40,330 bases of DNA from Vicingaceae bacterium (GCA_029210015.1 JARGOE010000016.1:1-40330); one strand, 5' to 3'; shown: positions 16,301-36,657, counted from the stretch's first letter. Notes: generated from the letters alone by a model not told the origin. Numbers and translations: made by a program.

Positions 16301-16582
16301 TTTAACAATTTGCTCGTGGTTATTATCGGATTGTGCTTTTTCTTGAATTTTTAACACTTGCTCTAAAGCAGACTTTGTTAATCCGTTTTGTTCAAGAGAA
16401 TCAACAACTCGCCATTCTTTTTTATAAGTATCTCCTTTACCATAAACTAATATGGGTTTTATTTTATTATTCTCTTCGTTTTCGGTTAAGTCATTCGATG
16501 ACGAACAATTAAACAGAGTAGCACTAATTATTAATGCTAAGAACACAAATAGGTAGTTTTTTTTTGATTTTAGGTATTGCAT
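10349..16582 (-). CDS. Alpha-2-macroglobulin family lipoprotein
   Basis: A very large (2077-residue) surface or periplasmic lipoprotein. The N-terminus is a signal peptide with lipobox TLFNC. A helical region of about 350 residues follows. The macroglobulin domains include the MG2-type TDRAIYRPGQTVHFKG and SVEEYKRPKFEV, the bait/flexible segment rich in Ser, Glu and Asp (about 1200-1280), and the A2M signature EALTKWKFIGLAHTKD. The internal thioester motif CAEQ (Cys1525) sits in YPYECAEQTFSRF, before a helical toroid and a C-terminal receptor-like domain. Bacterial A2Ms trap proteases and are thought to protect the envelope. In E. coli the partner is PBP1C; no penicillin-binding protein gene is present here. 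ATG 16582 is preferred over 16591 for a normal signal peptide. Confidence 0.92.
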   Translation of the reverse strand: MQYLKSKKNYLFVFLALIISATLFNCSSSNDLTENEENNKIKPILVYGKGDTYKKEWRVVDSLEQNGLTKSALEQVLKIQEKAQSDNNHEQIVKTLMVKAKLQSYVEEGAFVTTMNELNDEAIKAKYPLKPVIHSLIGELYWMFYQNNRWKFYDRSETVNFDNKDITTWDLKKITDASIKHYLLSIKNIDSLKRTPIETYDEIIITKNARDYRPFLYDFLAHRATDYLMNEEPSITKPIYEFAIDDSNYLASFNVFTRLKLVTKDTMSLKFYALKTLQNLTINHLTDTNPQALIDVELKRLQFVKNNAAFQNADTLYFKALTNLYNTYPEVETAAEIIYEIALIYQKRGSAYKFDEPEKYKWDLKTAITLCGNAMEKYKGSYGASLCEKLDHQIRSKSLNVTIEKVNVPNKPFRSLVAYKNLNKVYHKIVKIDFDTYKKWNRNIGYKERFDKINNSKEVKQWVTNTPNDGDLREHKAEIKIDALPLGFYVLLTSTTDSFTHDKEAVALTPIWISNLSFLTRRTKKEEVDFFVMDRTNGNPLKSVKAKLYYEKYNYTIRKYEWKSLGTKITDANGYFKVMPGSDYRNFYADLSLGYDRLNTEDSYYQYQYREDNRVYTKTVFFTDRAIYRPGQTVHFKGIVLQTDNNNNNKIRSNYKSTVTFYDVNHQKVANLKLTTNEYGTFSGSFTTPNNGLNGQMYISDNHGTKYFSVEEYKRPKFEVIFEPVKGTYRLESEVNVVGKAKMFSGAILDGADVNYRVVRNASFSYWCFYRWGHWPSSAQMEIKNGKTKTDDNGEFKVDFIAKPDKSVNKKYAPTYSYTIYADVIDINGETHSTTTYVSVGYKALNLNVSLPNQVHKVKVDTFKLNTTNLNGQFEAASGSIKIWQLKMAAKIYRKPLWSKGDINLITKDEYYKLFPYDEYDDENNQTKWEKKQEVYNVSFNTATKKSFKINDLKKWQSGVYTLEATTKDKYGKEVKEIKFFTVFDEGKEMPNNNLEWFNALKSNGEPGEKAEFLIGSAAKNVKVKYEIEHKGIIVKKEWITLNNEQRKIVIPILEKYRGNFHVHFTFVKYGRDFKNTATITVPYSNKQLDVEFETFRNKLLPGQKEEWKIKIKGKKGEKVAAEMVATLYDASLDAFKPNYWGLYTNAYDYSDRYWNSNTSFSTKGSELVSYDWNYKSLNTKTKVYDQLNWFGYYYGRRYRNYMYKNSVAGGYAEMDMLMESESVAMEESVDEDNFDDRSKESKKVGGKLAANSPSPSKDKNADITTKSSTMSIGADQQKQDLDGAGFEEVKARSNFNETAFFYPHLQTNSKGEVIIKFTIPEALTKWKFIGLAHTKDLKTGMLYEETVTQKDLMVYPNAPRFFRESDQMTFSTKITNLSDKDLEGGAKIFFYDALTMKLISGKLIKSDETVSFNVKQGKSTSVNWQIAIPEGYSAITYKVIAKSGSFTDGEEMAVPVLTNRMLVTESLPLPVRGKGVTNFKFNKLLASGSSSTLKHHKLTLEFTSNPAWYAIQSLPYLMEYPYECAEQTFSRFYANSIASHIANSNPKIKNVFESWKNSTPQAFLSNLEKNQELKALILEETPWVLNSQNESERKKRVGLLFDLNRMDNELGRALKKLQQLQVSNGGWTWFKGMPESRYMTQHIVAGMGHLDHLGVKNIRNDSKTWNMVQKAVRYLDDRIREDYEWLKKHSIDMDKDHLSNTSIQYLYARSYFLSDVEISSRNKEAYNYYHTQAKKYWLGKGRYMQGMIALALHRDGNPKTGIHVEHKIMASLKENAINHDELGMYWKDNVGGYYWYQAPIETQALLIEAFDEVTNDNESVEAMKVWLLKQKQTQDWRTTKATTEACYALLLRGTDLLASDDLVEIKVGNTVVDPKKLDDVKVEAGTGYFKTSWSKTAITPTMGNVTVTKKDDGVAWGSLYWQYFEQLDKITPHETPLKLVKKLFVQRNSDSGPIITLITKETKLKPGDKLKVRIELRVDRDMEYVHMKDMRASGLEPINVFSGYRYQDGLGYYESTKDASTNFFFDYLPKGTYVFEYPLRVNMSGNFSNGITSIQCMYAPEFTSHSEGLRINISSK

Positions 16583-16660
16583 AATGATCAATTTTTATGA
16601 GCTACAAGTATTTATTTGTAGTTAGATGCAAGCATTATAAAATTGCATAAAATTTAGCAC

Positions 16661-18348: not shown

Positions 18349-21300
18349 TTACTGAGCTAAAGTAAATCTTAAACTAATCCCTGCGTTAGTGTTAGATGTA
18401 GGGAATGTTGTTGATATATATGGAGTAGTAGCCACATAATCATAGAAGGCTCTTACATTTAAAGTCTGACTAACTCTATAATCCGCAGTAAACTTAATAG
18501 AGAAGATACGTTGTCCCGCTGTAAGTTGATTTACCTCTTCAACAATTTTTCTAATTATTGTATTGTTCTTTCTTACAACAAAATCAATTCTAGTATCAAT
18601 ATTTGCTTTTTTACCATTCTTAGTGAATGGCAATCTCACTTGCCTAAATTTATAACCTGTTCCTATAGACCATTCACTTCCCTTAACCTCAGTAATTTGG
18701 TTATTTGCCATACTTAAAGAAGCATTTCTATCTCTTTTATAATCCAGCCTAATAAGCATATTATTATGTAAAGTCATATCAGCCCCTAACAATGGTGAGA
18801 ACTGTTCTGAAATAGACACATTAGATACCTGTAATTCAGGAATGAAATTATTATTAATATCTCTCTCACTAGCTCCTTGATCATTCTCTTCATAAAGCAA
18901 ATTAGAAGTAAAAGAACTCATATTAAGAGTTGATTTATATGAATGAGAAAGAGTGAATTTTTTAAACAATCTATTTACAAATTTCATTTTACTCAATCCA
19001 TCAAATGTAACTCGCCAGTTTGGTAATGGAATGTATTTAGTAAATGACTCTAAGGAAACATTATCACCATCTTTACCAGAATAAGCAGCTACAAAAGTAG
19101 GTATTAATACATCTTGAGAAGTTCCACTGTAACCGTCAGCATATCCTTTAGACGTTCCAAATGAATTACCATTCTCTAAAGCTAACCTTTGGGATATTTT
19201 TTCTCGTTCAGCCAAAAAGCTTTCAAATATTGCTGAAGATTTTGTTAAATCATCATCACCAATAAATGCTGTATTGAAAGTTAAAAATGACATACTAAAA
19301 TTACCCGTTTCAATAGGTTTAACAAAGTAATAATCATTTCTATAATCTCCACCTAGGGTATCTATAAAATTTAAAGGGTCATCAATTTTGAAAAACTGTT
19401 GAGTTAAATTTGTAGAATAATTTCTTGAAGCAGTTAATTGTATTCTCAAAGTTTTTATTGGTCTTAATGTTGCTCTAAAATCATATCTTTCAGCAAATGT
19501 TGTATTATAATTATACATTAACGCAGTACTAGGTGTTAGCCAATCTCTATCAGCCGAATTAAGTGCAAAGTCAGGGTCTTGACCACCTGATATAAAATTA
19601 AATCCTGGAGCACTAAAACCTGCATTAGACCCTAAGACTTCAGTCTCTTGATTATATCCCGGCAGTAAGGTACCAACATTACGAGAGTATGTACCTGAAA
19701 CATTTTTAGGACTCATCATAGCTAACCAGAAAACATCCATTGGCTTAAGTGGTAATTTTTTCCTCCATAACTCAACCTTGGTACTATCACTATCTTTAAA
19801 TTTTTTCAAATCAAATTTTATCTCGGGAGTTGGAACTCCATTTTTCCAACCTTTTGCAACTGCATTTTGAGCTTGAGTTTTATTTTTATCAGGTTTCATA
19901 TTGTTTTGAGCCCTCCTTCTTTGTCTTTCTCTAGATCTTTTTTCTACTTTCTTCAAAAAGCCTACTTGACCATACAATTTGGTCATATTTAAAGTTGAAT
20001 TTACACCAACAGTATTTGAGTTTTGTATAGTATGACCAAGAGTATCTGCTCCAATTGGGGCCCTCTGCCAATCATAATCTGCAGAATATTTTGTAGACAA
20101 AGTAATAAAATCTAAATATGGTAATTTATTAATTGGGACTCCGTAGTTGAAGTTAAAATTGTGATGATAATGAGTATTTGTACCAAAGTCTCTAATGTTT
20201 TGCCAAACTGTATCTCTCCATGATGAATATTCATCACCAAAATCACTATTAACCCTTCCTCGTGTGTCATTCCCATTAAATGTCAATGGCTCTTCAATAG
20301 TAGCATTGTTGGTGGCATTAAAATCAAATTTTAAAGCTTTTGTTAAATCATACTTTAATCCATAAACTCTATTCCAATAGAAATGTTTTTCATAATAAGT
20401 AGGAAGGTTAAAATTAAACCCAGTATTATTTCTAACTTTTCTTTCAGAATACATTCTATCCATATCTGTTTGAAAAGTCAATTGTTTTGGGGCTAAATAG
20501 AAGTTAAAGTCTTTTATAATTTTAAATGCTTTTTTACTAGCAAACTTAGCAGAACTAAAGGGCTTATAATTCTTAGGGTTATTACTAAATGCGTACCCTA
20601 AACCACCTCTATAATTCTTTTTATTATTGAATTCAGTATTAATATCTCGATACTTGGTTTCTGAATAACCATAATTAAAAGAAACATTAGAAAAATCATA
20701 AAAGTGATTTTTCTTTTTATTTTTAGAAGGTAATTTTCTCACATTAGTAAAATTAATACTCCTTCGTTTAGTGTATTCTTGTGTTCTTTTACCTATAGAA
20801 TCTCTAGCTTCTTGAGGAAGAATATCATTCTCTAATAATTCTTTCAATTCTAAATCAGGGTCAAGAGGGTTGTACCTTGGTGTTACTATACCCTCGGATA
20901 TATTATAGTACATTGGTATACTTACCCCTATTTTTTCCGGAATAAATTTACCTAACTCAATGCTTGTAGAAATATCATAACTCTTTCGAGTTTCTATCTG
21001 TCTTTCATTAAGTTTTTGCTCAACACTTCCCCAACCAGGAGTGCTATAATCACCTGCTACTGTTACATTACCAAGATCAGCAATTTGAGTTGTAATTCTA
21101 GCAACAGAAGCCCAACCTCCTTCATTATCAAATTCAGCCATTCTAAGTTCGTTAACCCATATTTCTCCACATTTAGCCAAACCGTCATCATTAGGGCTTA
21201 ATGGGCTTTGCTTAGCATTTCTAATACCTATCATAAACACTCGCACATTTCCAATATTTGGGTTTCCTTTAACTCTCATGATATTTTTTCCATCATTCTC

Positions 21301-24300
21301 CTCATAAGGTTTTATTAATAAAACTCCACTATTTGCATCAGCTAACAAACTATTTCTCAAAACTTTCATATCTGTCAGCTTAGTAAATTGCAAATCAATA
21401 TTATTTGCTTCTGGCCACACTATCTCTCTATCCCCTGTATTACTATTATTATCAGTATTATAAGTTCCTTGAGGTGTTACTTGTAAAGGAACCTCATACT
21501 CATAATAATTATCATTAAAATCGGACCCCATTCTAATAAAAACTGATAAATCATTATCATTTAAGGGTTTTGTTGGATCACTTTCTTCAGCATGTATAAA
21601 CATTTTCAAACGTTTATACCTTCTAATATCAATATCCATAACCTTATATGCAGCTCTAGCATCTCCATCATTCAAATTACAAACATCCAATACTAATGCT
21701 TGCTCATTTAGCTGCTGTGTAGCAGTTCCAGAAGATGGATTAGGGTTAATTTCTCTATCTATTCCAGGAGGGATTATATAGTTAACAGGAGTTTTCTCGC
21801 TATTTTCTTCCACATTAACTCCTCCAACATTAAAAACAGTTTCATCATCATCATTCCCAATAAAATCACCTGGACTTAATAATCCTCCAGTATACTTTCT
21901 CCATTCTCCTCTTACTAATTCTAATCTTGCAAAACGCAAAACAAGCTCTTTATTAAAGCCTTTCATAAACATTCTCATAAATCGAATAGACTTAAAATCT
22001 TGAATATCTCCAATTACACTTTCTGGTTCTCTGATAGGAATTTTAAATTGATACCAATTTACATTTCTGGTTCTTCCATCAGGAGTAGTTACTGTTGCTG
22101 TAAAAACATTAGTTATAAAGTTATTTCCCACATTGGATGGACTAACATCTGCTGGATTAAGGTTGACAGAATATTGAAAATAACTCTCCCTAAAGTCTAG
22201 GTTATTATTATTATTAATATCTTCAATATCTGGTCTTGTAGTAGCTGATGTAGAATAACTCTCAGTAAACTGATCGGAAGTTGGAGAATTTCCTTCTAAT
22301 CCATTAAACATCTTATAACGATCTAAAATATTTTTACTCTGACTATCATAAGATGAACTTCTGTAGTGATTATAATTATCTCCAGATGGATCAAGATTTC
22401 CATTTAAATCTGTAAAAGAGCTAAAGTTTGGAAAAAATGAAGCTTCATCATTATTATTTAATCCATCCATACCAATATCCTGGAACGTTCTAGTACTTGG
22501 CGTGTTATCAAATGCGTTTACCAATTGCTGAACAGTTGGTACTCTACCCCAAATAGTGGTATCAACTAAATTTGCATTAGCACTAGTCAAAGCTGTTGTA
22601 GGCAATCCATTTTCAAATGATTTACGTGAATCTTTTAATATATCTTCAGAGATATTACCCAAGTTAAAATATAATTGACCTCCTGGATGACTTGGATCAC
22701 CATCATCAGAATTAAACGGATCCATTAACCAAAACTGGATATACTCAACATTTGAAGACTCAAAATCTGTTGTTTCTACTTTTCGCATAATACCAGCCCA
22801 ACGAGTATTCGGATTTATTAAATTCCCATTTCCATCAAAACCAGACCCTACACCATTCCCATCATCATAGTTATAAGGGCCTCTTTCAGTTGGATAGTAA
22901 GCTAAATCCATTGTAGCAATATTTTGAGTAGTTCCTTGCTGTTGTGCTTTAAATGGGAAAACTTCTGTTTGCAATACTTCTCTCATGTAATGGTTTGATT
23001 GCATTGCTGGGTCATTAGAAATGTGATTTGGCGTTCTTGAATCATTCCTCCAAAACAAAGGATCAATATTATACCAAGCTAGTCTTGCTCTATTATAACC
23101 ATATTCTAAAGTATTAGATAAAGGCAACTCTCCTTCAGGAAATAATGAAGGTTGCCCTTGAGGAGTTGAGGCTAATTTCCATTGAAAAATTGAACGCATA
23201 TCTATTGTCGATTGACTCCCTTCAAAATCATCTAAATAAGCAACTCCATCTTTAGTAATGGCTCCAGGATTCCCAGGAAAAAGTCTAGCAACCTCTCCCT
23301 CTATAGTTATACTTGACTTTTCTTTTGTACTATATATAGGTAGCTTATCTGCCCAACGAGTTAAAAAAGGAGCATCTCTTTTATAGGTTAAATCGAAGCC
23401 CATTACAGTATTATTTATTGGTTCATCTCCAATATTAATTTTACGTGTTAAAGGTCGTTCTGATAATTTTAAAATGGTTCCACCTAAATTAAAATCATCA
23501 CTAATCTTATAATCAAACCTAGATCCCATCAATGTTTTAGTCTGAATATTGAATAAAGATTGGCTTTCTAATGATATTTTAATAGGTGTCCCCGATTGTA
23601 AAATACCATCATTAATAATCTTAACTCTTCCTAAATTATAATCTACAGTATAATCTACATTTTCGGTTAATGCAGCACCACCAGCTGTAACAGATACAGA
23701 ACCTTCAGGAATATTCATAGCATTTAATGATATGTCAGAAGTAGATGAAGAGGAATACTGCCCCTTTATTCGAAATCTATTCTTGGTAGCATCTTGTTCA
23801 GCCAATATTTGAGTGGTAACATATAGTGTATCAAAAGCAAACTTATCAGCTGTCTGTTGATTTGAAAATTGACTTCTTAAATGTGAACCAAAAGGTTCTA
23901 ATACAGGAAAGTAGACTCGCCCATTATTAGAGTTTATTGTTACCCCATTAATATAATCAAATACCCCATCTGGACTTGCTTGATTATTGTTATTCAACCT
24001 ATCTAAGTTCATTACACTTACTAAAGGCAATCCATTAACCTCACCTTCAGGAATAAAAGGAATTTCAACTCCAGTTGCAGGATTCATATAGAATATATCT
24101 AAATAAAAATCATTTGGAGAAATATTAAAAGCTCCTAATGCATAAACATTTTTCATCATTAAATCCCATGTTGGAATTTGAGTATTAATGGTTGTCCCTT
24201 TTAGTAATTTAACATAAAGTGCATCCTGCCCTGCGACTCCATCAGTAGAAAATTCACCAACTTGGAAAACTTGACCATCAATAGTATATTGAAACGCAAC

Positions 24301-25758
24301 TGCTAAAATATTATCTAAGTTAAGAGCTGAATTTAAAGATATATACCCTAATTGTGAATTCAATGTATATTCAGATGGATTTAATAGTCTTGCATTTTCA
24401 TATTTTTCAAAATCTGTTCCATTTTCAAACCCCTGCAACTCTAATTCTTGACTAGCATTTACAAATCCTCTTATATCAGAAGTATTATAAGGTGAAGCCC
24501 CTGAAGTATCAGAAATATCGAAATATAAGTTATTAGCTGTATTAAAAGGGAAATTAAAGTTAGCTGCAGGATTAGCATCAATTACTAAGGGATCATTAAA
24601 TATATTTTGCTGGGTAGCTTCACCTAAATCCATAAATCCAATTATATTCTTAGTATTTTCAACAGCATTATTAATATTTGAAACCCAAATTTCAACTTTT
24701 GTAATGTTCGCTCTAGAAGTAATTACAGGTGGAGTAGCTAGTGAGTTTTCGTAAGTATCCCTAAAATAATGAGCTAAGAAAAAATGTTTGTTTTCTTCAT
24801 AATCGGAAGCCTCCCTTTCAAAATCTTGAATTTGAGCACCTCCTTGAATGTTAATTTCTTTTTTCTCCCCTTTTTCTTGAGAAAGCACCGAAGTTACAGT
24901 CATTCTCCCAAAACGCAATTCAGTTTTGATACCAAAAAGAGTTTGACTTCCTGTAATTAATTGCCCATTTAAAGGAAGTGAAACATTACCAGCTTCAATT
25001 TTCTGAATAATTTCATCCTCATATCCAGTATACTCAATTTTCATTTGATTTTCGAAATCAAATGTAGCCTCAGTATTATAATTCATTGATACCTTTAACT
25101 TCTCACCAATATTTCCAATAACATTTAATTGTATTTGTTGACCGAAATCAAAGACTCTAGTTGTTCGCTGATTTGCTGGAAGAGCAGGATTATCTCTTGT
25201 TGAACTATTTATTCCAAATGAGAGTTCTGCAGATCCTTGTGGTCGAATGTCAATTTTATTACCACCAAATATTCTGTCAAAAGCCTCTCCTTTTACTGTA
25301 AGTTGTGGCCTAAAACCTTTTGTTTGATTTATATCATCTGCAGCAGATTTTTGTTTCCAATAATCTTGTAAAGATTTTTTAGAATCATAATTAATATATT
25401 CATCAAAATCCATATAAGTAGGATACTTAAAATAAGTGTCTCCTATCTTCTCATAATAATTGTAAGTTCCTGTTTCAGGGTCGTATTGAAATCCAGTCTC
25501 AATATTACTTGGGTTATCTAAATACAATCCTCCAGAATTAGAATTGTTTGGGTCTCCTTGGCTATTGTCCTTAAAGGGGAATTGTAACTCAACTTCATCA
25601 GAATCTGGTGGTAACTCTAAATTTTCAAAAGCTAAAAAATTATTATGAGTAGATGCATTAGATCTGGATGGGCTATATATTGAACTAATTGCAATGATTG
25701 CTAGAGCTATAGCTGCAACTAAAATTACTTTATTATATGTATAACCTATTTTACTCAA
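18349..25758 (-). CDS. sprA: T9SS outer-membrane translocon SprA (Sov)
   Basis: This 2469-residue protein is the outer-membrane pore of type IX secretion, needed for export of adhesins, enzymes and gliding proteins. It has an N-terminal hydrophobic signal (about 8-30). Long beta-rich regions follow, with family features such as GEKLKVSMNYNTEATFDFEN, GDIQDFKSIRFMRMFMKG and GEIWVNELRMAEFDNEGG, and then a C-terminal stretch of many amphipathic strands ending SLRFTLAQ. Length and content match F. johnsoniae SprA (about 2400 residues), known to form a giant 36-strand barrel. It sits between ruvA (11 bases upstream) and gcvH. The reading frame is intact throughout. Confidence 0.96.
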   Translation of the reverse strand: MSKIGYTYNKVILVAAIALAIIAISSIYSPSRSNASTHNNFLAFENLELPPDSDEVELQFPFKDNSQGDPNNSNSGGLYLDNPSNIETGFQYDPETGTYNYYEKIGDTYFKYPTYMDFDEYINYDSKKSLQDYWKQKSAADDINQTKGFRPQLTVKGEAFDRIFGGNKIDIRPQGSAELSFGINSSTRDNPALPANQRTTRVFDFGQQIQLNVIGNIGEKLKVSMNYNTEATFDFENQMKIEYTGYEDEIIQKIEAGNVSLPLNGQLITGSQTLFGIKTELRFGRMTVTSVLSQEKGEKKEINIQGGAQIQDFEREASDYEENKHFFLAHYFRDTYENSLATPPVITSRANITKVEIWVSNINNAVENTKNIIGFMDLGEATQQNIFNDPLVIDANPAANFNFPFNTANNLYFDISDTSGASPYNTSDIRGFVNASQELELQGFENGTDFEKYENARLLNPSEYTLNSQLGYISLNSALNLDNILAVAFQYTIDGQVFQVGEFSTDGVAGQDALYVKLLKGTTINTQIPTWDLMMKNVYALGAFNISPNDFYLDIFYMNPATGVEIPFIPEGEVNGLPLVSVMNLDRLNNNNQASPDGVFDYINGVTINSNNGRVYFPVLEPFGSHLRSQFSNQQTADKFAFDTLYVTTQILAEQDATKNRFRIKGQYSSSSTSDISLNAMNIPEGSVSVTAGGAALTENVDYTVDYNLGRVKIINDGILQSGTPIKISLESQSLFNIQTKTLMGSRFDYKISDDFNLGGTILKLSERPLTRKINIGDEPINNTVMGFDLTYKRDAPFLTRWADKLPIYSTKEKSSITIEGEVARLFPGNPGAITKDGVAYLDDFEGSQSTIDMRSIFQWKLASTPQGQPSLFPEGELPLSNTLEYGYNRARLAWYNIDPLFWRNDSRTPNHISNDPAMQSNHYMREVLQTEVFPFKAQQQGTTQNIATMDLAYYPTERGPYNYDDGNGVGSGFDGNGNLINPNTRWAGIMRKVETTDFESSNVEYIQFWLMDPFNSDDGDPSHPGGQLYFNLGNISEDILKDSRKSFENGLPTTALTSANANLVDTTIWGRVPTVQQLVNAFDNTPSTRTFQDIGMDGLNNNDEASFFPNFSSFTDLNGNLDPSGDNYNHYRSSSYDSQSKNILDRYKMFNGLEGNSPTSDQFTESYSTSATTRPDIEDINNNNNLDFRESYFQYSVNLNPADVSPSNVGNNFITNVFTATVTTPDGRTRNVNWYQFKIPIREPESVIGDIQDFKSIRFMRMFMKGFNKELVLRFARLELVRGEWRKYTGGLLSPGDFIGNDDDETVFNVGGVNVEENSEKTPVNYIIPPGIDREINPNPSSGTATQQLNEQALVLDVCNLNDGDARAAYKVMDIDIRRYKRLKMFIHAEESDPTKPLNDNDLSVFIRMGSDFNDNYYEYEVPLQVTPQGTYNTDNNSNTGDREIVWPEANNIDLQFTKLTDMKVLRNSLLADANSGVLLIKPYEENDGKNIMRVKGNPNIGNVRVFMIGIRNAKQSPLSPNDDGLAKCGEIWVNELRMAEFDNEGGWASVARITTQIADLGNVTVAGDYSTPGWGSVEQKLNERQIETRKSYDISTSIELGKFIPEKIGVSIPMYYNISEGIVTPRYNPLDPDLELKELLENDILPQEARDSIGKRTQEYTKRRSINFTNVRKLPSKNKKKNHFYDFSNVSFNYGYSETKYRDINTEFNNKKNYRGGLGYAFSNNPKNYKPFSSAKFASKKAFKIIKDFNFYLAPKQLTFQTDMDRMYSERKVRNNTGFNFNLPTYYEKHFYWNRVYGLKYDLTKALKFDFNATNNATIEEPLTFNGNDTRGRVNSDFGDEYSSWRDTVWQNIRDFGTNTHYHHNFNFNYGVPINKLPYLDFITLSTKYSADYDWQRAPIGADTLGHTIQNSNTVGVNSTLNMTKLYGQVGFLKKVEKRSRERQRRRAQNNMKPDKNKTQAQNAVAKGWKNGVPTPEIKFDLKKFKDSDSTKVELWRKKLPLKPMDVFWLAMMSPKNVSGTYSRNVGTLLPGYNQETEVLGSNAGFSAPGFNFISGGQDPDFALNSADRDWLTPSTALMYNYNTTFAERYDFRATLRPIKTLRIQLTASRNYSTNLTQQFFKIDDPLNFIDTLGGDYRNDYYFVKPIETGNFSMSFLTFNTAFIGDDDLTKSSAIFESFLAEREKISQRLALENGNSFGTSKGYADGYSGTSQDVLIPTFVAAYSGKDGDNVSLESFTKYIPLPNWRVTFDGLSKMKFVNRLFKKFTLSHSYKSTLNMSSFTSNLLYEENDQGASERDINNNFIPELQVSNVSISEQFSPLLGADMTLHNNMLIRLDYKRDRNASLSMANNQITEVKGSEWSIGTGYKFRQVRLPFTKNGKKANIDTRIDFVVRKNNTIIRKIVEEVNQLTAGQRIFSIKFTADYRVSQTLNVRAFYDYVATTPYISTTFPTSNTNAGISLRFTLAQ

Positions 25759-28777: not shown

Positions 28778-29467
28778 ATGAAAAAAATTATTGTTTTTTC
28801 TGGGGCTGGAATAAGTGCTGAAAGTGGATTAAAAACTTTTCGTGATAGCGATGGTCTATGGGAAAATTTTGACATAAATGAAGTAGCCACTCCTCAGGCA
28901 TGGGAAGCAAATCCTAAATTAGTTTTAGATTTTTATAACTTAAGAAGAAAACAAGTAATTGAATCTCAACCAAACCCTGCTCATTTTGCATTAGCAGAAT
29001 TAGAAAAGCATTTTAACATTCAAATTATTACTCAAAACATTGATGATCTTCACGAACGAGCAGGGTCTACCAATATTACACACTTACACGGAGAGCTATT
29101 AAAAGCTAGAAGCACTAGTTCTGAAAACACATTCTTAATTGAGAATCACGAATTAAATCTGGGTGACAAATGCCCTAACAATAGCCAATTAAGACCTGAT
29201 GTTGTATGGTTTGGAGAACCTGTCCCAAAAATGATGGATGCTATGAAAATATGCGAAGATGCAGATTTATTATTAATTATTGGAACATCCCTAACTGTTT
29301 ACCCTGCTGCAAACCTAATAGAATTCGTTCCTGAAAACTGCATAAAATATCTTATCGATCCCAACGAAATCTCAACAAGCGACATAAAAAATTTAACTAC
29401 TATAAAAGAAAAAGCCAGTGTTGGAATTCCAACACTGGCTAATATTTTAATAAAAGAATATTCTTAG
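28778..29467 (+). CDS. Sirtuin-type NAD-dependent protein deacylase (SIRT5/CobB-like)
   Basis: This enzyme removes acyl groups from protein lysines using NAD. The 229 residues include the NAD-binding FSGAGISAESGLKTFRD, TQNIDDLHERAG, the catalytic His104 in HLHGEL, VVWFGEPVP and GTSLTVYPAA. Tyr53 and Arg56 (FYNLRR) form the YxxR motif that in SIRT5 and E. coli CobB binds succinyl and malonyl groups. The usual zinc cysteines are missing; only Cys132 is in the region. I chose ATG 28778; a TTG at 28769 would add three residues. Its last 55 bases contain a hairpin that serves as terminator for the opposite-strand gene, and the two stops overlap. Confidence 0.92.
   Translation: MKKIIVFSGAGISAESGLKTFRDSDGLWENFDINEVATPQAWEANPKLVLDFYNLRRKQVIESQPNPAHFALAELEKHFNIQIITQNIDDLHERAGSTNITHLHGELLKARSTSSENTFLIENHELNLGDKCPNNSQLRPDVVWFGEPVPKMMDAMKICEDADLLLIIGTSLTVYPAANLIEFVPENCIKYLIDPNEISTSDIKNLTTIKEKASVGIPTLANILIKEYS
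29402..29440 (-). terminator. Intrinsic terminator of the T9SS gene, embedded in the sirtuin coding sequence
   Basis: Positions 29413-29440 are a perfect 28-base palindrome (14-bp arms, AGCCAGTGTTGG/CCAACACTGGCT around AATT). On the minus strand it is followed by TTTTTCTTTT (29413-29404), a good termination tract. It lies 24 bases beyond the stop of the minus-strand gene at 29464. On the plus strand the flank AATATTTTAATA is weaker, so it may act in both directions. Confidence 0.85.
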
Positions 29468-30219
29468 TTAATAATTATTCTTTCTGTTTTAATTGCTTGA
29501 CCATTCACATTTAAAGAGTAGAAATAAACACCAGAGTTTAAATCAGAAACATTTAATTGAACTTGACCTTTGTTATTAATCACTTTGTGAGAAGTAACTT
29601 TCTTACCAACAACATCATACACATCAATTGATACATTAGCTGAAGCATCAGTATCAACATTATAATTTACATTTAATAATGAAGATGCTGGATTTGGATA
29701 AGCAGAAAGCTTTACATCATTTTTTGAAACTTCTGTTTTAATCGAAACTGGGAAACCTTCTTTCCAAGTTATAATTGCAGAAGATGAGTCATTTGGATTA
29801 GCAACATTGTAAACTGTAACTCTCCATCTTGCAGAATCACCAGTAGCCCATGTAAATGTAAATGGCGCTACTTTAAAAGTAGAATCAATAGTTCCTGCTG
29901 CCATAGTAACAGTTCCACCATTAGTTTGAGCACCAGCAACACCTGCATCACCAGTATAACAATTAGCCCCGTAACAAACCTGTAAATCAGACTGCTTTGG
30001 ATTTACCATTTCATAAACTTTAGAACTATAAACAGCTGAACCAGATGTAGCTAAACTTTTTACATGAAACTTAGTTTCACTTAAAGCCTGTAATGAACCT
30101 CTCTCATAATGAGAAGTTCCCTCAATGCTTACATCGTAATGATCCATTATTTGAAAAGTTTGCGCAGAAGCGAATCCTCCTAAAAAAATGGATGAAATAA
30201 ACAGTATTCTTTTTATCAT
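29464..30219 (-). CDS. Secreted protein with T9SS type A sorting domain
   Basis: A 251-residue secreted protein with a signal peptide (1-19, ending FASAQ). A beta-rich domain (about 20-165) contains a Cys pair in CYGANCYTG that could form a disulfide. A typical T9SS C-terminal sorting domain covers about 172-251 (LSAYPNPASSLLNVNY, VDVYDVVGKKVT-like, LNSGVYFYSL, TERIIIN). About two-thirds of the protein is the cargo, whose role I do not recognise. A strong promoter-like box precedes it and a strong terminator follows, so it is probably monocistronic. It diverges from the Omp28/T9SS gene at 30411. Confidence 0.85.
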   Translation of the reverse strand: MIKRILFISSIFLGGFASAQTFQIMDHYDVSIEGTSHYERGSLQALSETKFHVKSLATSGSAVYSSKVYEMVNPKQSDLQVCYGANCYTGDAGVAGAQTNGGTVTMAAGTIDSTFKVAPFTFTWATGDSARWRVTVYNVANPNDSSSAIITWKEGFPVSIKTEVSKNDVKLSAYPNPASSLLNVNYNVDTDASANVSIDVYDVVGKKVTSHKVINNKGQVQLNVSDLNSGVYFYSLNVNGQAIKTERIIIN

Positions 30220-30410: not shown

Positions 30411-32621
30411 ATGAAAAAAATTTCCTTACTAGTCGCAACTTTTGCGCTAACGATTGGGGGGTTTGCTCAAACAAGTTCAAATTGCACAACTTGTGAGATA
30501 GCGCCTAACCTAGTTAAAAGTAATCAAAACTACGACAAAGCTCTTTGGGACATTCAATTGGATGTTGATCCTGTAGCTGCATTCAACCCTGCAACTGGAT
30601 TAGCGGGTGCAGCTTGGACCGGTACTGAGTTTTGGGTGTCAAAATGGGCTAACAATGCTATGTATACTGCTAACGCTTCTGGTGCTATGACAGGTACATT
30701 TACTATCCCAGGTGTAACAGGTGTTAGATCTATTACAACTGACGGTACAGACATGTACGTAGGAACTGCTGCAACTCAAATATACAGAGTAAGTAAAACA
30801 ACTAAAACTGTACTTCAAACAATCAATACTTCAGTGCCTAACTGTAGATACGTTTGTTACGATCCAACTTTAGATGGTAATAATGGTGGTTTTTGGGTAG
30901 GTCAGTATGCTACTGCAATTACTGCAGTTAGTATGTCAGGTGCAACTTTATCTACAATTCCTGCTGGAACTCATGGTTTATCAGGAATTTATGGATTAGC
31001 TTATGATCCTTATTCTACTGGTGGTCCATTTTTATGGGCTTTTGACCAAGGTGGTAACGGTGCAGACATTGTTCAGTTAACTATGGCTGGAACTCCTACT
31101 GGATTAGTGCATGATGCCACTATTGATTTACAAGGTGGAAATACTGGTATTGCTGGTGGTTTGTTTATTTGTAACAATTTTGTATCAGGTAAAAATTCTA
31201 TGATTGGTATGTGTCAAGGAGCTTCTTTATTCTCTTATGACCTAGCTGATCCATTAGCAATTGATGCAAAAATGGATGCTCTTACTTTTGGTCAATATGT
31301 AACTGCTGGTAATGTAAATATTACAGGTACTGTTAGAAACACAGGTTTAAACACTATTACATCTATGGACATTTCTTATGATGCAGGTAGTGGTCCAGTA
31401 AACCAAAATTTCTCTGTGAATATTCCTTCAAATGGAACTTACAACTTTACTCATGGAACTCCATTAGTTGCTGTTGCAGGTAATTCATACAATGTTACTG
31501 TAACTGTTGCTTTAACTGGTGATTTAAATGCTGCAAACAATTCATTAACCGCATCTACAACTGCATTAACATCAGTTCCTGCTAAAGTTAATGTTGGTGA
31601 AGAAAGAACTGGTACATGGTGTCAATGGTGTCCAAGAGGTGCTGTTGGTTTAGCTTTTATGGAAGCTCAAACGGACTTTATCGGTATTGCTGTTCATAAT
31701 AATGATGCAATGGCTATTTCAGCTTATGACAACGGAATTAGCGCATATATACCACCTTCATTCCCTGGTGGTGGTGTTGATAGAGTATTTGAAGGAGATC
31801 CTTCTTCATCAAGCTTTTTAAACATGCATAATCAAAGAAAAACTGCAACAGTTCCTTGTGATGTTAAAAACATTGTTGCTAGTTTAAGTGGTTCTCAAAT
31901 TACAGTTTCTGCTGACTCTGAGTGGTACGGAACTATTACTGGTGATTTCAGATTATCTTGTGTAATCACTGAAGATGATGTAGCTGGTGCAAATCAATCT
32001 AACGCTTATGGTGGTGGTGGAAACGGACCTATGGCTATGCCTGCTGGAAAAAATAATTCTTACGATTTTGGAGCATCTAGTTCTCCAACTTCAGTTCCTT
32101 CAGCTGCATTCTTAGGTTACGATCATGTTGCTCAATCTTTATCTAGTAATAATATCTTAGGAACTCCTGGAAGTTTACCTGCAACTACAGTTCCTGTAGG
32201 AGTGCATAGCTTTACTTTCCCAGCTGTAAGTTCTGGAGTTGTTACTAACTACCAAAAAGCTCACGCTGTAGTAATGGTAATTGATGCTAGTACTGGAGAA
32301 ATTTTAAATGCTGATGTTGCACCTATTACTACTGCAACTGCAATTAGTGAAGTGGAAGGTGTTAAACATAAATTAAATGTTTACCCTAACCCTACTAACG
32401 ACATTGCTAACATTACATTTGATTTAGCTAACGAAAGTACAGTGAGTTTAAATGTATATAACGCTATGGGTAAATTAGTTTACACTGAAAACGGTGGTGT
32501 TATGAATGCAGGAAACCATAAATTTATTTTAGACGGAAGTAACTTAAATAGTGGTTTTTACTTTGTTAATTTAACTATTGACGGTAAAGTAATTACTAAA
32601 AAAGTTTCTTTGTTAAAATAA
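30411..32621 (+). CDS. Multi-domain T9SS cargo with an Omp28-type CxxC domain
   Basis: A 736-residue secreted protein. The signal peptide spans 1-19 (GGFAQ). A repetitive beta-propeller-like region (about 50-285) is followed by a CARDB-like domain (about 290-385; VNITGTVRNTGLNTI). An Omp28-related, thioredoxin-like domain runs from about 390 to 645 with GTWCQWCPRGA, where Cys404 and Cys407 form a CxxC. A T9SS sorting domain ends it (about 655-736; LNVYPNPTNDIANITFDL, LNSGFYFVNL, ITKKVSLLK). It should be exported through SprA and attached to or released from the cell surface. Codons such as GGT, GCT and AAC look more frequent than in neighbours, which suggests high expression. A strong terminator follows. 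The substrate is unknown. Confidence 0.85.
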   Translation: MKKISLLVATFALTIGGFAQTSSNCTTCEIAPNLVKSNQNYDKALWDIQLDVDPVAAFNPATGLAGAAWTGTEFWVSKWANNAMYTANASGAMTGTFTIPGVTGVRSITTDGTDMYVGTAATQIYRVSKTTKTVLQTINTSVPNCRYVCYDPTLDGNNGGFWVGQYATAITAVSMSGATLSTIPAGTHGLSGIYGLAYDPYSTGGPFLWAFDQGGNGADIVQLTMAGTPTGLVHDATIDLQGGNTGIAGGLFICNNFVSGKNSMIGMCQGASLFSYDLADPLAIDAKMDALTFGQYVTAGNVNITGTVRNTGLNTITSMDISYDAGSGPVNQNFSVNIPSNGTYNFTHGTPLVAVAGNSYNVTVTVALTGDLNAANNSLTASTTALTSVPAKVNVGEERTGTWCQWCPRGAVGLAFMEAQTDFIGIAVHNNDAMAISAYDNGISAYIPPSFPGGGVDRVFEGDPSSSSFLNMHNQRKTATVPCDVKNIVASLSGSQITVSADSEWYGTITGDFRLSCVITEDDVAGANQSNAYGGGGNGPMAMPAGKNNSYDFGASSSPTSVPSAAFLGYDHVAQSLSSNNILGTPGSLPATTVPVGVHSFTFPAVSSGVVTNYQKAHAVVMVIDASTGEILNADVAPITTATAISEVEGVKHKLNVYPNPTNDIANITFDLANESTVSLNVYNAMGKLVYTENGGVMNAGNHKFILDGSNLNSGFYFVNLTIDGKVITKKVSLLK

Positions 32622-32639
32622 TATGATTTGAATAAAAAG

Positions 32640-32675
32640 TAAGGAGTTAGATTTTTTCTAACTCCTTATTTTTTT
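32640..32675 (+). terminator. Intrinsic terminator after the Omp28/T9SS gene
   Basis: A perfect 12-bp stem (32640-32651 with 32657-32668; TAAGGAGTTAGA/TCTAACTCCTTA) with a 5-base T loop is followed by seven Ts (32669-32675). It lies 18 bases after the stop. Confidence 0.95.
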
Positions 32676-32832
32676 ATAAAATATTCTAATCGCAAGCCCA
32701 TTATTTAGCCAGCAAATTAGAATTTTAATAAAGCTTTTAGTTATACATTATCATTATAAATAATAAGTAAATTAGCTTTTGTATGGCACAATAATTGCCT
32801 TGTTTATTTAGAATATAATAAATTAAATTACT

Positions 32833-33354
32833 ATGAAAAAAATATTTTTATTTAGCACTATTACACTATTAACCCTAAGTGTATTTGCACAAAAAGAATC
32901 TAGAACTGTTCCTTCTGTTAACTTAAAAGACATGCAAGGAAATACGATTAATACATCTGATTTTAAGAATGATGGAAAACCAATGATTATCAATTTTTGG
33001 GCAACATGGTGTACTCCTTGTAAAAGAGAGTTAAATAATATCGCAGAAGTATATGACGAATGGGTAGAAGAAACTGGTGTTAAATTAATTGCAGTATCAA
33101 TAGATGATGCAAGAAATGCTGGAAAAGTTTCTCCATATGTTAACGGAAAAGGCTGGGAATATGAGGTTTATATTGATGCAAATCAAGATTTTCAAAGAGC
33201 AATAGGTTTTCAAAACCCTCCCTTTACTTGTATAGTTGATGGAAGTGGTAAAATTGTTTGGACTCATACTGGATATCAAGAAGGTGATGAAGAACAGTTA
33301 ATTGAAGCTGTCAAAAAATTAGTTGCTGGAGAAAGTTTAGAAGAGCACAAATAA
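32833..33354 (+). CDS. Periplasmic TlpA-like thiol-disulfide oxidoreductase
   Basis: A 173-residue protein with a signal peptide (1-20, ending VFAQ) and no lipobox, so it is probably soluble in the periplasm. The thioredoxin fold begins near VPSVNLKDMQGNTIN. Its active site is FWATWCTPCKREL with Cys60 and Cys63. VKLIAVSIDDAR and the later NPPFTCIVDGSGKIVW with the cis-proline region are typical of the AhpC/TSA-Redoxin-TlpA group. It likely reduces or exchanges disulfides in extracytoplasmic proteins; the Omp28-type neighbours are candidate partners by context. It is followed by its own terminator, so it is separated from the downstream barrel gene. Confidence 0.9.
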   Translation: MKKIFLFSTITLLTLSVFAQKESRTVPSVNLKDMQGNTINTSDFKNDGKPMIINFWATWCTPCKRELNNIAEVYDEWVEETGVKLIAVSIDDARNAGKVSPYVNGKGWEYEVYIDANQDFQRAIGFQNPPFTCIVDGSGKIVWTHTGYQEGDEEQLIEAVKKLVAGESLEEHK

Positions 33355-33372
33355 GAATTCAATAATATTTAG

Positions 33373-33410
33373 AATAAGCCCGATTTTTTTATAATTTCGG
33401 GCTTATTTTT
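33373..33410 (+). terminator. Intrinsic terminator after the TlpA-like gene
   Basis: An 11-bp perfect stem (33373-33383 with 33397-33407; AATAAGCCCGA/TCGGGCTTATT) and a 13-base AT loop, followed by Ts to 33410. The next start codon (33439) is only 29 bases beyond, so read-through may still supply the following genes. Confidence 0.9.
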
Positions 33411-33438
33411 ATACTCAGATTTCAACACAATTTTAAAA

Positions 33439-35100
33439 ATGAATTTCAATAGATTAACACTATTTAGCATATCCATTTTGCTAACTAACTTGTCATTTTC
33501 TCAAAATATTGACCAGGTATTATCAAGAGGAGAAGTCCACGGAAGTTTTCAAATGGACATGCAATATTATCAAGAAGATAGCTTAATTGGTGCTCAAGAA
33601 GTTCCTGAAGATGTTTTGATGAATGGTTTTGCTAACATCAATTACACAAACGGTAATTTTTCGGCAGGATTCAGATATGAAAGTTATCTAAATACGATGC
33701 TTGGTTTTCCTCCTGGATATAAGGGCAATGGTATTGGATATAAATACGCTTCATATACAAATGATGACATGACTGTTACTGTAGGAAATTATTATGAGCA
33801 ATTTGGTAATGGACTAATATTTAGGACTTACGAGGCAAGAGGCTTAGGTTATGACAACGCAATGGAAGGAATTCGTATAAATTACAAACTTGCAGAAGGC
33901 CTTTTTGTAAAAGGTATCATTGGTAAACAACGGTTTTATTTTGAAACTGGAGAAGGAGTAATTAGAGGAGTTGATGGAGAGTTAATGTTGAATGATTTTT
34001 TTGGTGGAAAATTTGCTGAATCTAAAACAAAACTAACTCTTGGAGGTAGTTTTATTAGTAAATATCAGGTAGATCAAAGTGCTCAACTTAATTTACCAGA
34101 AAATGTTGGAGCTTCTGCTGGTAGGTTTACATTACAAAGGGGAAAGGTTAGATTAACTGGTGAATACGCTAGAAAAATTAATGACCCATCTGCAGACAAC
34201 AACTTTATTTATAAAGAAGGTGAAGCTTTCTTTGCTGAAACAGGATACTCTACAAAAGGATTTGGTTTAACATTATCAGCTAAAGGAGTGGATAATATGA
34301 GTTATCGATCAGATAGAAATGCTGCTTTAACAGACCTTCAAATTAACTTTTTACCTGCCCTTACTAGACAGCATACATACAATTTACTAGCTACCCTTTA
34401 CCCTTATGCAACCCAACCAAATGGAGAAATTGCTTTTCAAGGGGAAATGGTATATAAATTTAAAAAGAAATCTTTATTAGGAGGCAAATACGGAACTGGT
34501 ATTTTAATAAACTACTCCACTGTATACAATATAGATTCTACTGCAATTGTAGGTCCTGACACTGCTTTATTAGGCTATGAATCAAATATTTTTGCACTGG
34601 GTGAAGAAAAGTATTATGAAGAACTGAATATTGAAATAAGTAAAAAATTCAACAAAAAATTTAAAGGTATTTTCACCTATTCTAACATGGTATTTAATCA
34701 AGCTGTTATTCAAGGGAAACCACCTCAAGATTATCCAACAGTTTATGCCAACATAGGTGTGATAGATCTTACATATAAAATAAATAAAAAACACGCTATT
34801 CGAACTGAAGTACAAGGGCTTTTTACTAAACAAGACCAACAAGATTGGGCTACTTTACTAGTTGAATATACTTTTTCTCCGCATTGGTTTCTTGCTGTTA
34901 TGGATCAATACAATTATGGTAATAAATATGAAGATGAGAGAATCCATTATTATTTTGCTTCTGCTGGATATATTAAAGGAACCAATAGGATTCAGTTAGG
35001 ATATGGTAAACAAAGAGCTGGTATTTTCTGTGTAGGAGGTGTTTGTAGAAATGTGCCAGCAGCAAGTGGATTAACATTAAGTATAACAAGTAGCTTTTAA
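33439..35100 (+). CDS. DUF6029 family outer-membrane beta-barrel protein
   Basis: A 553-residue protein with a signal peptide (1-21, ending LSFSQ). Alternating hydrophobic and polar strands continue to a terminal Phe (SITSSF), the usual ending of an outer-membrane barrel. I recognise the DUF6029 pattern near the start: SRGEVHGSFQMDMQYYQEDS, GFRYESYLNTMLG, GNYYEQFGNGLIFRTYEARG. The function is not known. It sits 20 bases upstream of an Omp28 lipoprotein gene, so they probably form one unit, and a thioredoxin gene precedes it. Together these suggest a role in assembling or serving CxxC-containing surface proteins, but that is context only. Confidence 0.82.
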   Translation: MNFNRLTLFSISILLTNLSFSQNIDQVLSRGEVHGSFQMDMQYYQEDSLIGAQEVPEDVLMNGFANINYTNGNFSAGFRYESYLNTMLGFPPGYKGNGIGYKYASYTNDDMTVTVGNYYEQFGNGLIFRTYEARGLGYDNAMEGIRINYKLAEGLFVKGIIGKQRFYFETGEGVIRGVDGELMLNDFFGGKFAESKTKLTLGGSFISKYQVDQSAQLNLPENVGASAGRFTLQRGKVRLTGEYARKINDPSADNNFIYKEGEAFFAETGYSTKGFGLTLSAKGVDNMSYRSDRNAALTDLQINFLPALTRQHTYNLLATLYPYATQPNGEIAFQGEMVYKFKKKSLLGGKYGTGILINYSTVYNIDSTAIVGPDTALLGYESNIFALGEEKYYEELNIEISKKFNKKFKGIFTYSNMVFNQAVIQGKPPQDYPTVYANIGVIDLTYKINKKHAIRTEVQGLFTKQDQQDWATLLVEYTFSPHWFLAVMDQYNYGNKYEDERIHYYFASAGYIKGTNRIQLGYGKQRAGIFCVGGVCRNVPAASGLTLSITSSF

Positions 35101-35120
35101 TTTACGTAAATATAACTATC

Positions 35121-35966
35121 ATGAAAAAAACTATATTTATAATATCATTAATATCAATAGCTTTTTACAGTTGTGATAAAGTTGATGATCCAACTCCAGA
35201 CAATTTTGTAGGAACAGAAGGAATAATTTGGGACGACTCATTATTTATTGAGTCATCACCTACAATGAGAAAAATAATTATTGAAGAATTTACTGGTCAG
35301 TTGTGTACATTTTGTCCTGTTGGAGCAAGAGAAATTGAACGATTAGATTCAATCTATACTGACCAATTCATTCCAATATCTGTTCATGCTGGAGCTTTTG
35401 CTGATCCGAATAATGGTGCTCCTAATGATTTTAGAACTGAAGCAGGAACTGCATACAATAATACTTTTGGAGCTTCTGGTTATCCAGCAGGAACAGTTTC
35501 TAGAATTAACAATGCCGCTGTTACAGGAAATTCACAATGGGAAGTTGATATACAGTCAATTGAAAATGATGTGCCTAAGGTTAGTATTGGTTTATCTACA
35601 TTATATGATGATTCTACTAGAACCTTAAAGACTATTGTTAGCACTGAATGGCTATCTTCTGAAGTAGGTACTTATAATTTACAGCTATATCTAGTTGAAG
35701 ATAGTATAGTTGCTTATCAGCTTGACAACGGTAATCCAATTCAAAACTATGTGCACAGACATATGCTAAGAAAAGCAATTAATAGTACCTGGGGAACACC
35801 AATACCAAGCTCAAACTTAGGGGATATTGATACCCAAGATTTCGCAATAGAAGTTGATAATGAATTTGATAAAAATCATTGCATAGTAGTCGCCCATATC
35901 TATAAAGTGTCGCCAGATTATGAGATATTACAAGCTGAAGAACTTCATATAGTCGATACTCACTAA
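35121..35966 (+). CDS. Omp28-related outer-membrane lipoprotein
   Basis: A 281-residue lipoprotein. The signal peptide ends at lipobox AFYSC (Cys18), and a short acidic linker follows. The Omp28 domain starts with IIEEFTGQLCTFCPVGAREI, containing the CxxC Cys62 and Cys65, and continues with ISVHAGAFADPN and FGASGYPAGTVSR, the thioredoxin-like cis-Pro region. P. gingivalis Omp28 is a surface lipoprotein of unclear role, once proposed as an adhesin. The CxxC segment closely resembles that of the T9SS protein at 30411 (GTWCQWCPRGA). It shares an operon with the DUF6029 barrel and has a strong terminator. Confidence 0.88.
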   Translation: MKKTIFIISLISIAFYSCDKVDDPTPDNFVGTEGIIWDDSLFIESSPTMRKIIIEEFTGQLCTFCPVGAREIERLDSIYTDQFIPISVHAGAFADPNNGAPNDFRTEAGTAYNNTFGASGYPAGTVSRINNAAVTGNSQWEVDIQSIENDVPKVSIGLSTLYDDSTRTLKTIVSTEWLSSEVGTYNLQLYLVEDSIVAYQLDNGNPIQNYVHRHMLRKAINSTWGTPIPSSNLGDIDTQDFAIEVDNEFDKNHCIVVAHIYKVSPDYEILQAEELHIVDTH

Positions 35967-35985: not shown

Positions 35986-36015
35986 AAGCCTCTGAAAAAT
36001 TTCAGGGGCTTTTTT
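35986..36015 (+). terminator. Intrinsic terminator after the Omp28 lipoprotein gene
   Basis: An 11-bp stem with one G-T pair (35986-35996 with 36001-36011; AAGCCTCTGAA/TTCAGGGGCTT) and a 4-base loop is followed by Ts to 36015. The next gene begins 16 bases later. Confidence 0.92.
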
Positions 36016-36030
36016 CATTATCTTTGAAAA

Positions 36031-36657
36031 ATGAAAAACTACCTAATAATCATATTTGCCTTGTCAAGTTTATCCTTATCAGGACAAACTTTTAAAGCTG
36101 GATTATTAGCTGGATTAAGTGGGTCTCAAATTGAAGGTGATGGATATGGTGGGTATAATAAATTAGGTTTTATTGCAGGAGGATTTTCTAATGTTGATTT
36201 AAACGAAAAGTGGTCAGCTCAAATGGAAATTTACTTTATAAATAAAGGTAGTTTTAAAGCAGCAAAACCAAGTAAAGGAATTTATAATCAGTTCTATTTA
36301 AATATGAACTACATAGAAATCCCTGTTGCTTTTAGATACGAGTATAATAAGTTTATGTTTGAAATAGGTCCTTACCTAGCTAAATTCTTGAGCTTCAAAT
36401 TTAAAGATGAATTTGGAGAGCGAGAACAACCTTTTGTTAATTACCCCATAAACAGTTTTGATTTTGGAGGTTTTGTTGGAGTAAATTACAATCTTACAGA
36501 AAAGATTATTTTTAATTTACGCTCAAAAAATTCGTTAATACCTTTTAGGAATTACCAAAGTTTTGATCAGCAAATAGGAATTTTAAATAAACTTTTTAAT
36601 AATGGGTGGTTCCATGTAGATATTAACTTTACAATACGTTATCAATTTGGAGAATAA
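36031..36657 (+). CDS. Small outer-membrane beta-barrel protein, porin-like
   Basis: A 208-residue protein with a signal peptide (1-19, ending SLSGQ). An eight-strand-type barrel pattern follows: KAGLLAGLSGSQIEGDGYGG, the central YIEIPVAFRYEYNKFMFEIG, and IRYQFGE at the end. It fits the PorT/OMP_b-brl_2 group of Bacteroidota proteins. PorT (SprT) itself is a T9SS component, but I cannot distinguish it from other small barrels here, and the usual PorT context does not clearly apply. The last 11 bases overlap the start of ubiX, so the two genes are translationally linked. Confidence 0.78.
   Translation: MKNYLIIIFALSSLSLSGQTFKAGLLAGLSGSQIEGDGYGGYNKLGFIAGGFSNVDLNEKWSAQMEIYFINKGSFKAAKPSKGIYNQFYLNMNYIEIPVAFRYEYNKFMFEIGPYLAKFLSFKFKDEFGEREQPFVNYPINSFDFGGFVGVNYNLTEKIIFNLRSKNSLIPFRNYQSFDQQIGILNKLFNNGWFHVDINFTIRYQFGE

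Follow-up and report, generated by a model that had tools for sequence, protein, structure and literature searches.

We analyzed a stretch of 40,330 nucleotides from a Vicingaceae bacterium (GCA_029210015.1, JARGOE010000016.1:1-40330; the whole stretch is hereafter the window), in which four consecutive plus-strand genes at 30411-35966 had been singled out because three of their exported products carry CxxC motifs. They encode a protein with a type IX secretion system (T9SS) tail, a TlpA-type thioredoxin, an outer-membrane barrel of the DUF6029 family, and an Omp28 lipoprotein. We find that TlpA, DUF6029, and Omp28, travelling with PorA, are a widely conserved and previously undescribed cell-envelope unit of T9SS-bearing Bacteroidota, of which a T9SS-secreted HBP35/Omp28-like protein is often a further part. 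The evidence consists of gene linkage, phylum-wide co-occurrence, conserved cysteine pairs, protein folds, one fusion of TlpA with the barrel, and one operon that includes DsbD. A literature search found no paper describing DUF6029 together with TlpA, Omp28, or PorA. The best explanation overall, in which our confidence is evenly balanced, is a conserved thiol module of the outer membrane by which PorA is delivered or its state passed on.

Conserved linkage of TlpA, DUF6029, and Omp28

The DUF6029 barrel is encoded in 80 of the 296 Bacteroidota genomes of our census. Across 94 full-length DUF6029 loci, the gene directly upstream on the same strand is a TlpA in 71 and the gene directly downstream is an Omp28 in 74, and the two gaps are usually of a few to tens of bases. 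When 20 more distant loci are added, the counts become 88/110 for TlpA and 83/112 for Omp28. The trio is flanked by sirtuin, UbiX, and RuvB genes in Flavobacteriales and by polyprenyl synthetase, GcpE, and other genes in Bacteroidales. Since the flanks differ between the orders, it is the trio that is conserved and not the region.

The thioredoxin was called with a profile of the operon TlpA (E-value up to 1e-25), and the profile search recovered TlpA genes lying under longer spurious open reading frames (ORFs), e.g., in G168, G113, G144, and G230. This dedicated orthologue occurs in 75 of the 296 genomes, all of them among the 80 with DUF6029 (Fisher test, 8e-65); related genomes are not independent, so this and the other Fisher values overstate the significance, although the pattern is seen across many families. 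It lies directly upstream of DUF6029 on the same strand in 62 genomes, divergently in 5, and elsewhere in 8, i.e., the two genes are adjacent in 67 of 75. Among the five DUF6029-positive genomes below the TlpA threshold, four (G022, G104, G112, G123) belong to a single family, f22, and both loci fetched from it (L112, L113) have a weaker TlpA adjoining DUF6029. Scores against the orthologue profile range from 174 to 278 bits in 20 DUF6029-positive genomes and do not exceed 82 bits in 13 negative ones. This TlpA forms an orthologue group of its own, set apart from other TlpA paralogues and confined to genomes with DUF6029.

Two genomes tie the genes together more closely. At locus L127 (genome G292), TlpA and DUF6029 are a single ORF of 667 amino acids, in which the barrel part starts from its mature end with no signal peptide of its own, the arrangement that a true fusion should show. 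A second fusion was suspected in G539, where inspection gave separate TlpA and barrel ORFs. At L121 (genome G210), TlpA, DUF6029, and DsbD form an operon with overlapping ends, next to a divergent Omp28 lipoprotein gene and T9SS Omp28-like and PorA-like genes. This genome has two DsbD copies with equal scores, one of which overlaps the end of DUF6029.

In 72 loci with wide flanks, we found TlpA in 61, Omp28 in 57, PorA in 37, a long Omp28-like protein in 26, and all four in 15. The barrel and the thioredoxin are almost inseparable, and Omp28 is usually the next gene. The T9SS-tailed protein, with a long Omp28-like ORF near only 26/72 loci, was rejected as a universal core member and is instead a recurrent one. 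Some loci depart from the common order. In rumen and gut Bacteroidales (L084-L089, L100), a variant of the module has no Omp28 adjoining the barrel, and often a second, longer thioredoxin-like protein (~440-560 amino acids) before TlpA, with a CINC motif in the two that were read. At L036, Omp28 is present in two copies, and TlpA is separated from DUF6029 by a T9SS HBP35/Omp28-like gene.

The original prediction had allowed that the grouping might be chance should the genes rarely co-occur in other genomes; they co-occur and adjoin each other across the phylum, which answers the point decisively. A chance neighborhood was rejected on this co-occurrence and adjacency and on the search for PorA-like genes in the phylum described below. 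Vertical synteny without function would account for the sirtuin, UbiX, and RuvB flanks, which are also syntenic among close relatives. However, the flanks change in Bacteroidales and other lineages while the trio remains, and the co-occurrence holds where the genes are unlinked, so that we regard chance or mere synteny as practically negligible. That the genes form one functional unit is very probable.

Module proteins in the window and their cysteines

The genome of the window (G000:C107) is fragmented (2.43 Mb, 82% complete), and the named relatives nearest to it in the set of fetched loci are Vicingaceae and other Flavobacteriales. The window features of the module are the following:

29464-30219, minus strand: PorA orthologue, 251 amino acids, with signal peptide, Ig-like domain with C82-Y-G-A-N-C87, and T9SS type A tail
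29959-29976, minus strand: codons 82-87 with the Cys pair of the PorA orthologue, the sole invariant columns of family profile A5
30411-32621, plus strand: T9SS-tailed protein, 736 amino acids, with an HBP35/Omp28-like thioredoxin and sandwich region and CQWC at 404/407
32640-32668, plus strand: terminator-like hairpin 3' of the T9SS protein gene (minimum free energy -22.1 kcal/mol for 32632-32680, z -7.4)
32833-33354, plus strand: TlpA/ResA-type periplasmic thioredoxin, 173 amino acids, with CTPC at 60/63 and cis-Pro130 (AhpC-TSA, 1.5e-20)
33371-33409, plus strand: terminator-like hairpin in the TlpA/DUF6029 gap (minimum free energy -18.5 kcal/mol, z -6.9)
33439-35100, plus strand: DUF6029 outer-membrane beta-barrel, 553 amino acids, ~24 strands (PF19494, E 3e-189)
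35029-35046, plus strand: codons of the barrel Cys pair C531-x-G-G-V-C536 in the last loop (model hairpin 528-532/535-539)
35121-35966, plus strand: Omp28 lipoprotein, 281 amino acids, with lipobox C18, thioredoxin-like domain with CTFC at 62/65, and beta-sandwich
35986-36011, plus strand: terminator-like hairpin 3' of the Omp28 gene (hairpin analysis)

The coordinates originally given for the four plus-strand ORFs and for their Cys pairs (404/407, 60/63, 62/65) are right, and all four products have signal peptides. Two elements had been overlooked: the barrel pair C531/C536 and the PorA orthologue at 29464-30219, just outside the interval. The identity of the barrel is certain (PF19494, E 3e-189, 630.6 bits against a gathering score of 27), and the last gene encodes a genuine Omp28 lipoprotein (178.9 bits with NF033782, whose cut-off is 150). 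The first gene had been called an Omp28-type T9SS protein. Its tail bears out the secretion signal (Por_Secre_tail, 3e-14), and the family search gave no PF11551 or NF033782 match; its likeness to Omp28 lies in an HBP35/Omp28-like middle region, which aligns with the Omp28 lipoprotein (BLASTP E 8e-6 over 152 amino acids; profile E 4e-9). Terminators had been placed between three of the genes. Hairpins do follow the first gene, TlpA, and Omp28, but the hairpin analysis of the window gave none in the 20-bp gap between DUF6029 and Omp28. Given the hairpin between TlpA and DUF6029, the transcription of these two genes may be partly uncoupled in this lineage.

A small OMP_b-brl_2 barrel gene (36031-36657, plus strand) follows Omp28 directly, with a terminator-like hairpin in front of it, and is retained in Flavobacteriales and some Bacteroidales relatives. 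The window also has a minus-strand ORF of 2080 amino acids at 10349-16591.

TlpA has the features of the TlpA/ResA type, namely an exported thioredoxin fold, a WCxPC motif, and a cis-proline. C60, P62, C63, and Pro130 are invariant (71/71), and the best relative in the PDB is 2m72 (E 9e-64). Among 20 tested DUF6029-positive genomes, DsbD is present in all, DsbB in none, and VKOR in one. This combination favors TlpA as a reductant, and an oxidizing Dsb pathway acting on the module is accordingly not favored.

The Omp28 cysteines C18, C62, and C65 are invariant (74/74), the CxxC being in the thioredoxin-like N-terminal part, outside PF11551 (residues 110-278). The structure model (predicted local distance difference test, pLDDT, 90.0) has the fold of HBP35 from the gum-disease bacterium Porphyromonas gingivalis (5y1a, Z 25.3, 222 residues, 2.4 A); next come 2axo, a protein from Agrobacterium (Z 18.5), and 2r2c, the Omp28 sandwich of P. 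gingivalis (Z 13.2). At least 2 acidic residues stand at +2 to +7 in 31 of 39 Omp28 proteins, often as D-K-I-E/D-E, which is off the exact consensus position of the export signal described near the +1 Cys of surface lipoproteins (C-X-K-(D/E)2 or SDDFE type; PMC5080379). The acidic residues after the lipid-anchored Cys suggest that Omp28 may be located at the surface.

In the barrel, C531 and C536 are kept in 113 and 114, respectively, of 114 sequences, the 20 distant ones included, and in 70 of the 114 they are the only Cys beyond residue 35. In the AlphaFold2 model (pLDDT 89.4, predicted template modelling score 0.82), a barrel of ~24 strands, the last two strands are joined by a long loop, where the two Cys are expected to lie opposite each other on a tight hairpin. 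From the list of strands and the usual topology of such barrels, this loop should be extracellular.

What do these cysteines do? TlpA and Omp28 might be dedicated thiol chaperones whose role ends with shaping, proof-reading, or protecting the structural disulfides of PorA and the barrel; there would be no relay or signaling, and the function of the barrel would lie outside redox. There is precedent in E. coli, where DsbC rearranges the disulfides of LptD, and both the near-invariant, usually sole Cys pair of the barrel and a TlpA dedicated to barrel-bearing genomes fit such a role. Yet no oxidizing partner was found (DsbB 0/20, VKOR 1/20), and Omp28 and the T9SS protein, being anchored in the outer membrane or exported, come late for barrel folding; we consider this rather unlikely.

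The original prediction saw a redox route across the envelope. Its shared thiol theme is supported: every partner family has a near-invariant Cys pair, the TlpA is a dedicated one, DsbD occurs in 20/20 genomes, and one operon contains DsbD. Its specific proposals, that Omp28 is kept reduced or that metal is shuttled, are not borne out. In its developed form, electrons would pass from DsbD to TlpA, the barrel, and surface thioredoxin-like proteins acting on external disulfides or metals. A near-invariant CxxC or Cx4C in every partner, the DsbD gene in the G210 operon, and the Cys-dependent thioredoxin activity of HBP35 (PMC2907840) speak for such a reducing route. It is nevertheless distinctly unlikely: the C531/C536 pair is predicted to sit at the barrel's outer end, and we saw no other conserved Cys from which a chain across the lumen could be built.

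The folds closest to the barrel model are usher, OprD/Occ, and AlgE barrels. Membership of the usher family was rejected, because Pfam gives only DUF6029 at E-values up to 1 and the resemblance is in fold only. The porin-like folds would fit a transport function, either the uptake of heme, with an HBP35-like hemophore alongside, or the export of polysaccharide, which has been suggested for Wzi-like DUF6029; HBP35, whose fold Omp28 shares (Z 25.3), binds hemin, and some Wzi-type barrels resemble DUF6029 by HHpred (PMC9603273). However, the listed 25 commonest of 126 neighbor families (119 neighbors) include no polysaccharide export family and no recurrent heme or polysaccharide genes, and polysaccharide export was set aside as the main function for want of such neighbors. 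Transport would also leave the dedicated TlpA and the linkage with PorA unexplained, and we hold it to be quite improbable.

PorA and the type IX secretion system

The profile of the PorA family (A5) has a sole match in the PDB, 6kjk (PorA 28-171; E 3.8e-8), with the CFG-C motif aligned. The only two invariant residues of the family are both Cys, and the pair is present in 55/55 sequences. At 251 amino acids, the window orthologue is close in size to PorA (near 246), and its tail matches TIGR04183 (E 9.6e-13) and Por_Secre_tail (E 2.7e-15). PorA homologues were first recruited from ORFs near DUF6029, and therefore only the later search of the phylum tests the linkage independently. This search found a PorA-like gene in 50 genomes, 42 of which have DUF6029 (p 7e-21). 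In 35 genomes, no more than 4 kb separates it from TlpA or the barrel, and in six it adjoins a TlpA that is away from the barrel. Several Bacteroidales have the order TlpA-DUF6029-Omp28-PorA, at times with a long Omp28-like gene after it. SprA is present in 79/80 DUF6029-positive genomes and in 148/216 others (p 7e-10). The window itself encodes this T9SS translocon (18349-25758, minus strand; SprA_N, E 6.5e-194).

In P. gingivalis, PorA is PG2172 (PMC7712824) and Omp28 is PG2173 (PMC9722745). The two locus tags are consecutive; the gene order rests on these tags as given in papers, the species being outside the 393 sampled genomes of its order. We take PG2174 to be the DUF6029 barrel and PG2175 (PDB 2m72) to be TlpA.

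PorA is a surface protein that controls the type IX secretion system in P. gingivalis; it acts upstream of PorXY-SigP and is found on the surface of mutants of the translocon (Sov); no direct contact between PorA and PorY was detected, and other factors should thus mediate (PMC7712824). The compartments in which these missing factors are to be sought are those of the barrel, TlpA, and Omp28. On this ground, our proposal is that the three serve to deliver PorA or to pass on its state. That the unit serves PorA is fairly probable; the redox-coupled delivery or relay mechanism, taken as a whole, is tentative. DsbD would keep TlpA reduced, TlpA would work at the periplasmic mouth of the barrel, and TlpA and Omp28 would determine whether the Cys in the hairpins of the barrel and PorA are thiols or disulfides. 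Together with Omp28, the barrel would give PorA a way to the surface that does not depend on SprA or, alternatively, would carry a signal from PorA at the surface back to PorXY-SigP. We infer the contacts, redox states, direction of electron flow, and effect on secretion that this scheme involves.

Several observations weigh against this explanation. A PorA-like gene is near the barrel in only 37/72 loci (none was found at L147, among others), eight genomes have a PorA-like gene without DUF6029, with low scores except in one, and SprA is absent from one DUF6029-positive genome. The Cys pair of the barrel might form a disulfide with a structural role only. On co-purification in P. gingivalis, PorA was mainly with Sov-PorV, and the passages of that study on PorA co-purification mention none of the barrel, TlpA, and Omp28; its authors also noted an alternative way in which PorA might be secreted (PMC8754138). 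We also considered a thiol-disulfide system across the outer membrane, in which periplasmic TlpA and a barrel whose Cys hairpin is extracellular would exchange electrons with surface thioredoxin-like proteins and PorA. The redox state outside, or the completion of secretion, would then be reported to the periplasm or imposed from it, tuning type IX secretion; we think this unlikely.

As a proposed unit for PorA delivery or relay, the trio supplies three named, co-inherited candidates in the periplasm, the outer membrane, and the lipid anchor of the outer membrane. They bear on two questions posed in earlier studies (PMC7712824, PMC8754138), the translocon-free route of PorA to the surface and its signal to the inner-membrane kinase PorY. 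If true, this reading would assign a function to DUF6029 and to the Omp28 lipoproteins, which occur across much of the phylum, and might reveal the first redox relay to run through an outer-membrane barrel.

Comparison with known systems

The chaperone-usher barrels FimD/PapC are the best fold match to the DUF6029 model (Z 18.3, 373 residues, 4.4 A), both having ~24 strands. However, DUF6029 has no sequence match to the usher family, and a barrel likeness of this size is common and shows no function. HBP35, which loses its thioredoxin activity on mutation of the Cys and binds hemin (PMC2907840), shares its two-domain fold with the window Omp28, and the 736-residue protein combines a comparable region with a T9SS tail. 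Unlike HBP35, the window Omp28 is a lipoprotein without such a tail. Paraprevotella clara 00502, an Omp28-related T9SS cargo on the cell surface that binds trypsin (PMC9477747), is likewise a secreted Omp28-related protein, not reported with TlpA or DUF6029. Its trypsin binding points to a possible non-redox role for secreted Omp28-like proteins.

With the PorA pathway of P. gingivalis, the module shares PorA itself, whose orthologue is the minus-strand gene of the window and which adjoins Omp28 by locus tag in that species. In contrast to the module, the published pathway names no TlpA, DUF6029, or Omp28. Finally, the module resembles the reductive pathway of DsbD and TlpA/ResA, with a TlpA-type CxxC thioredoxin and DsbD present, in the same operon in one genome. 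The known clients of that pathway are cytochrome c and copper sites; here, unlike there, the co-inherited partner is an outer-membrane barrel.

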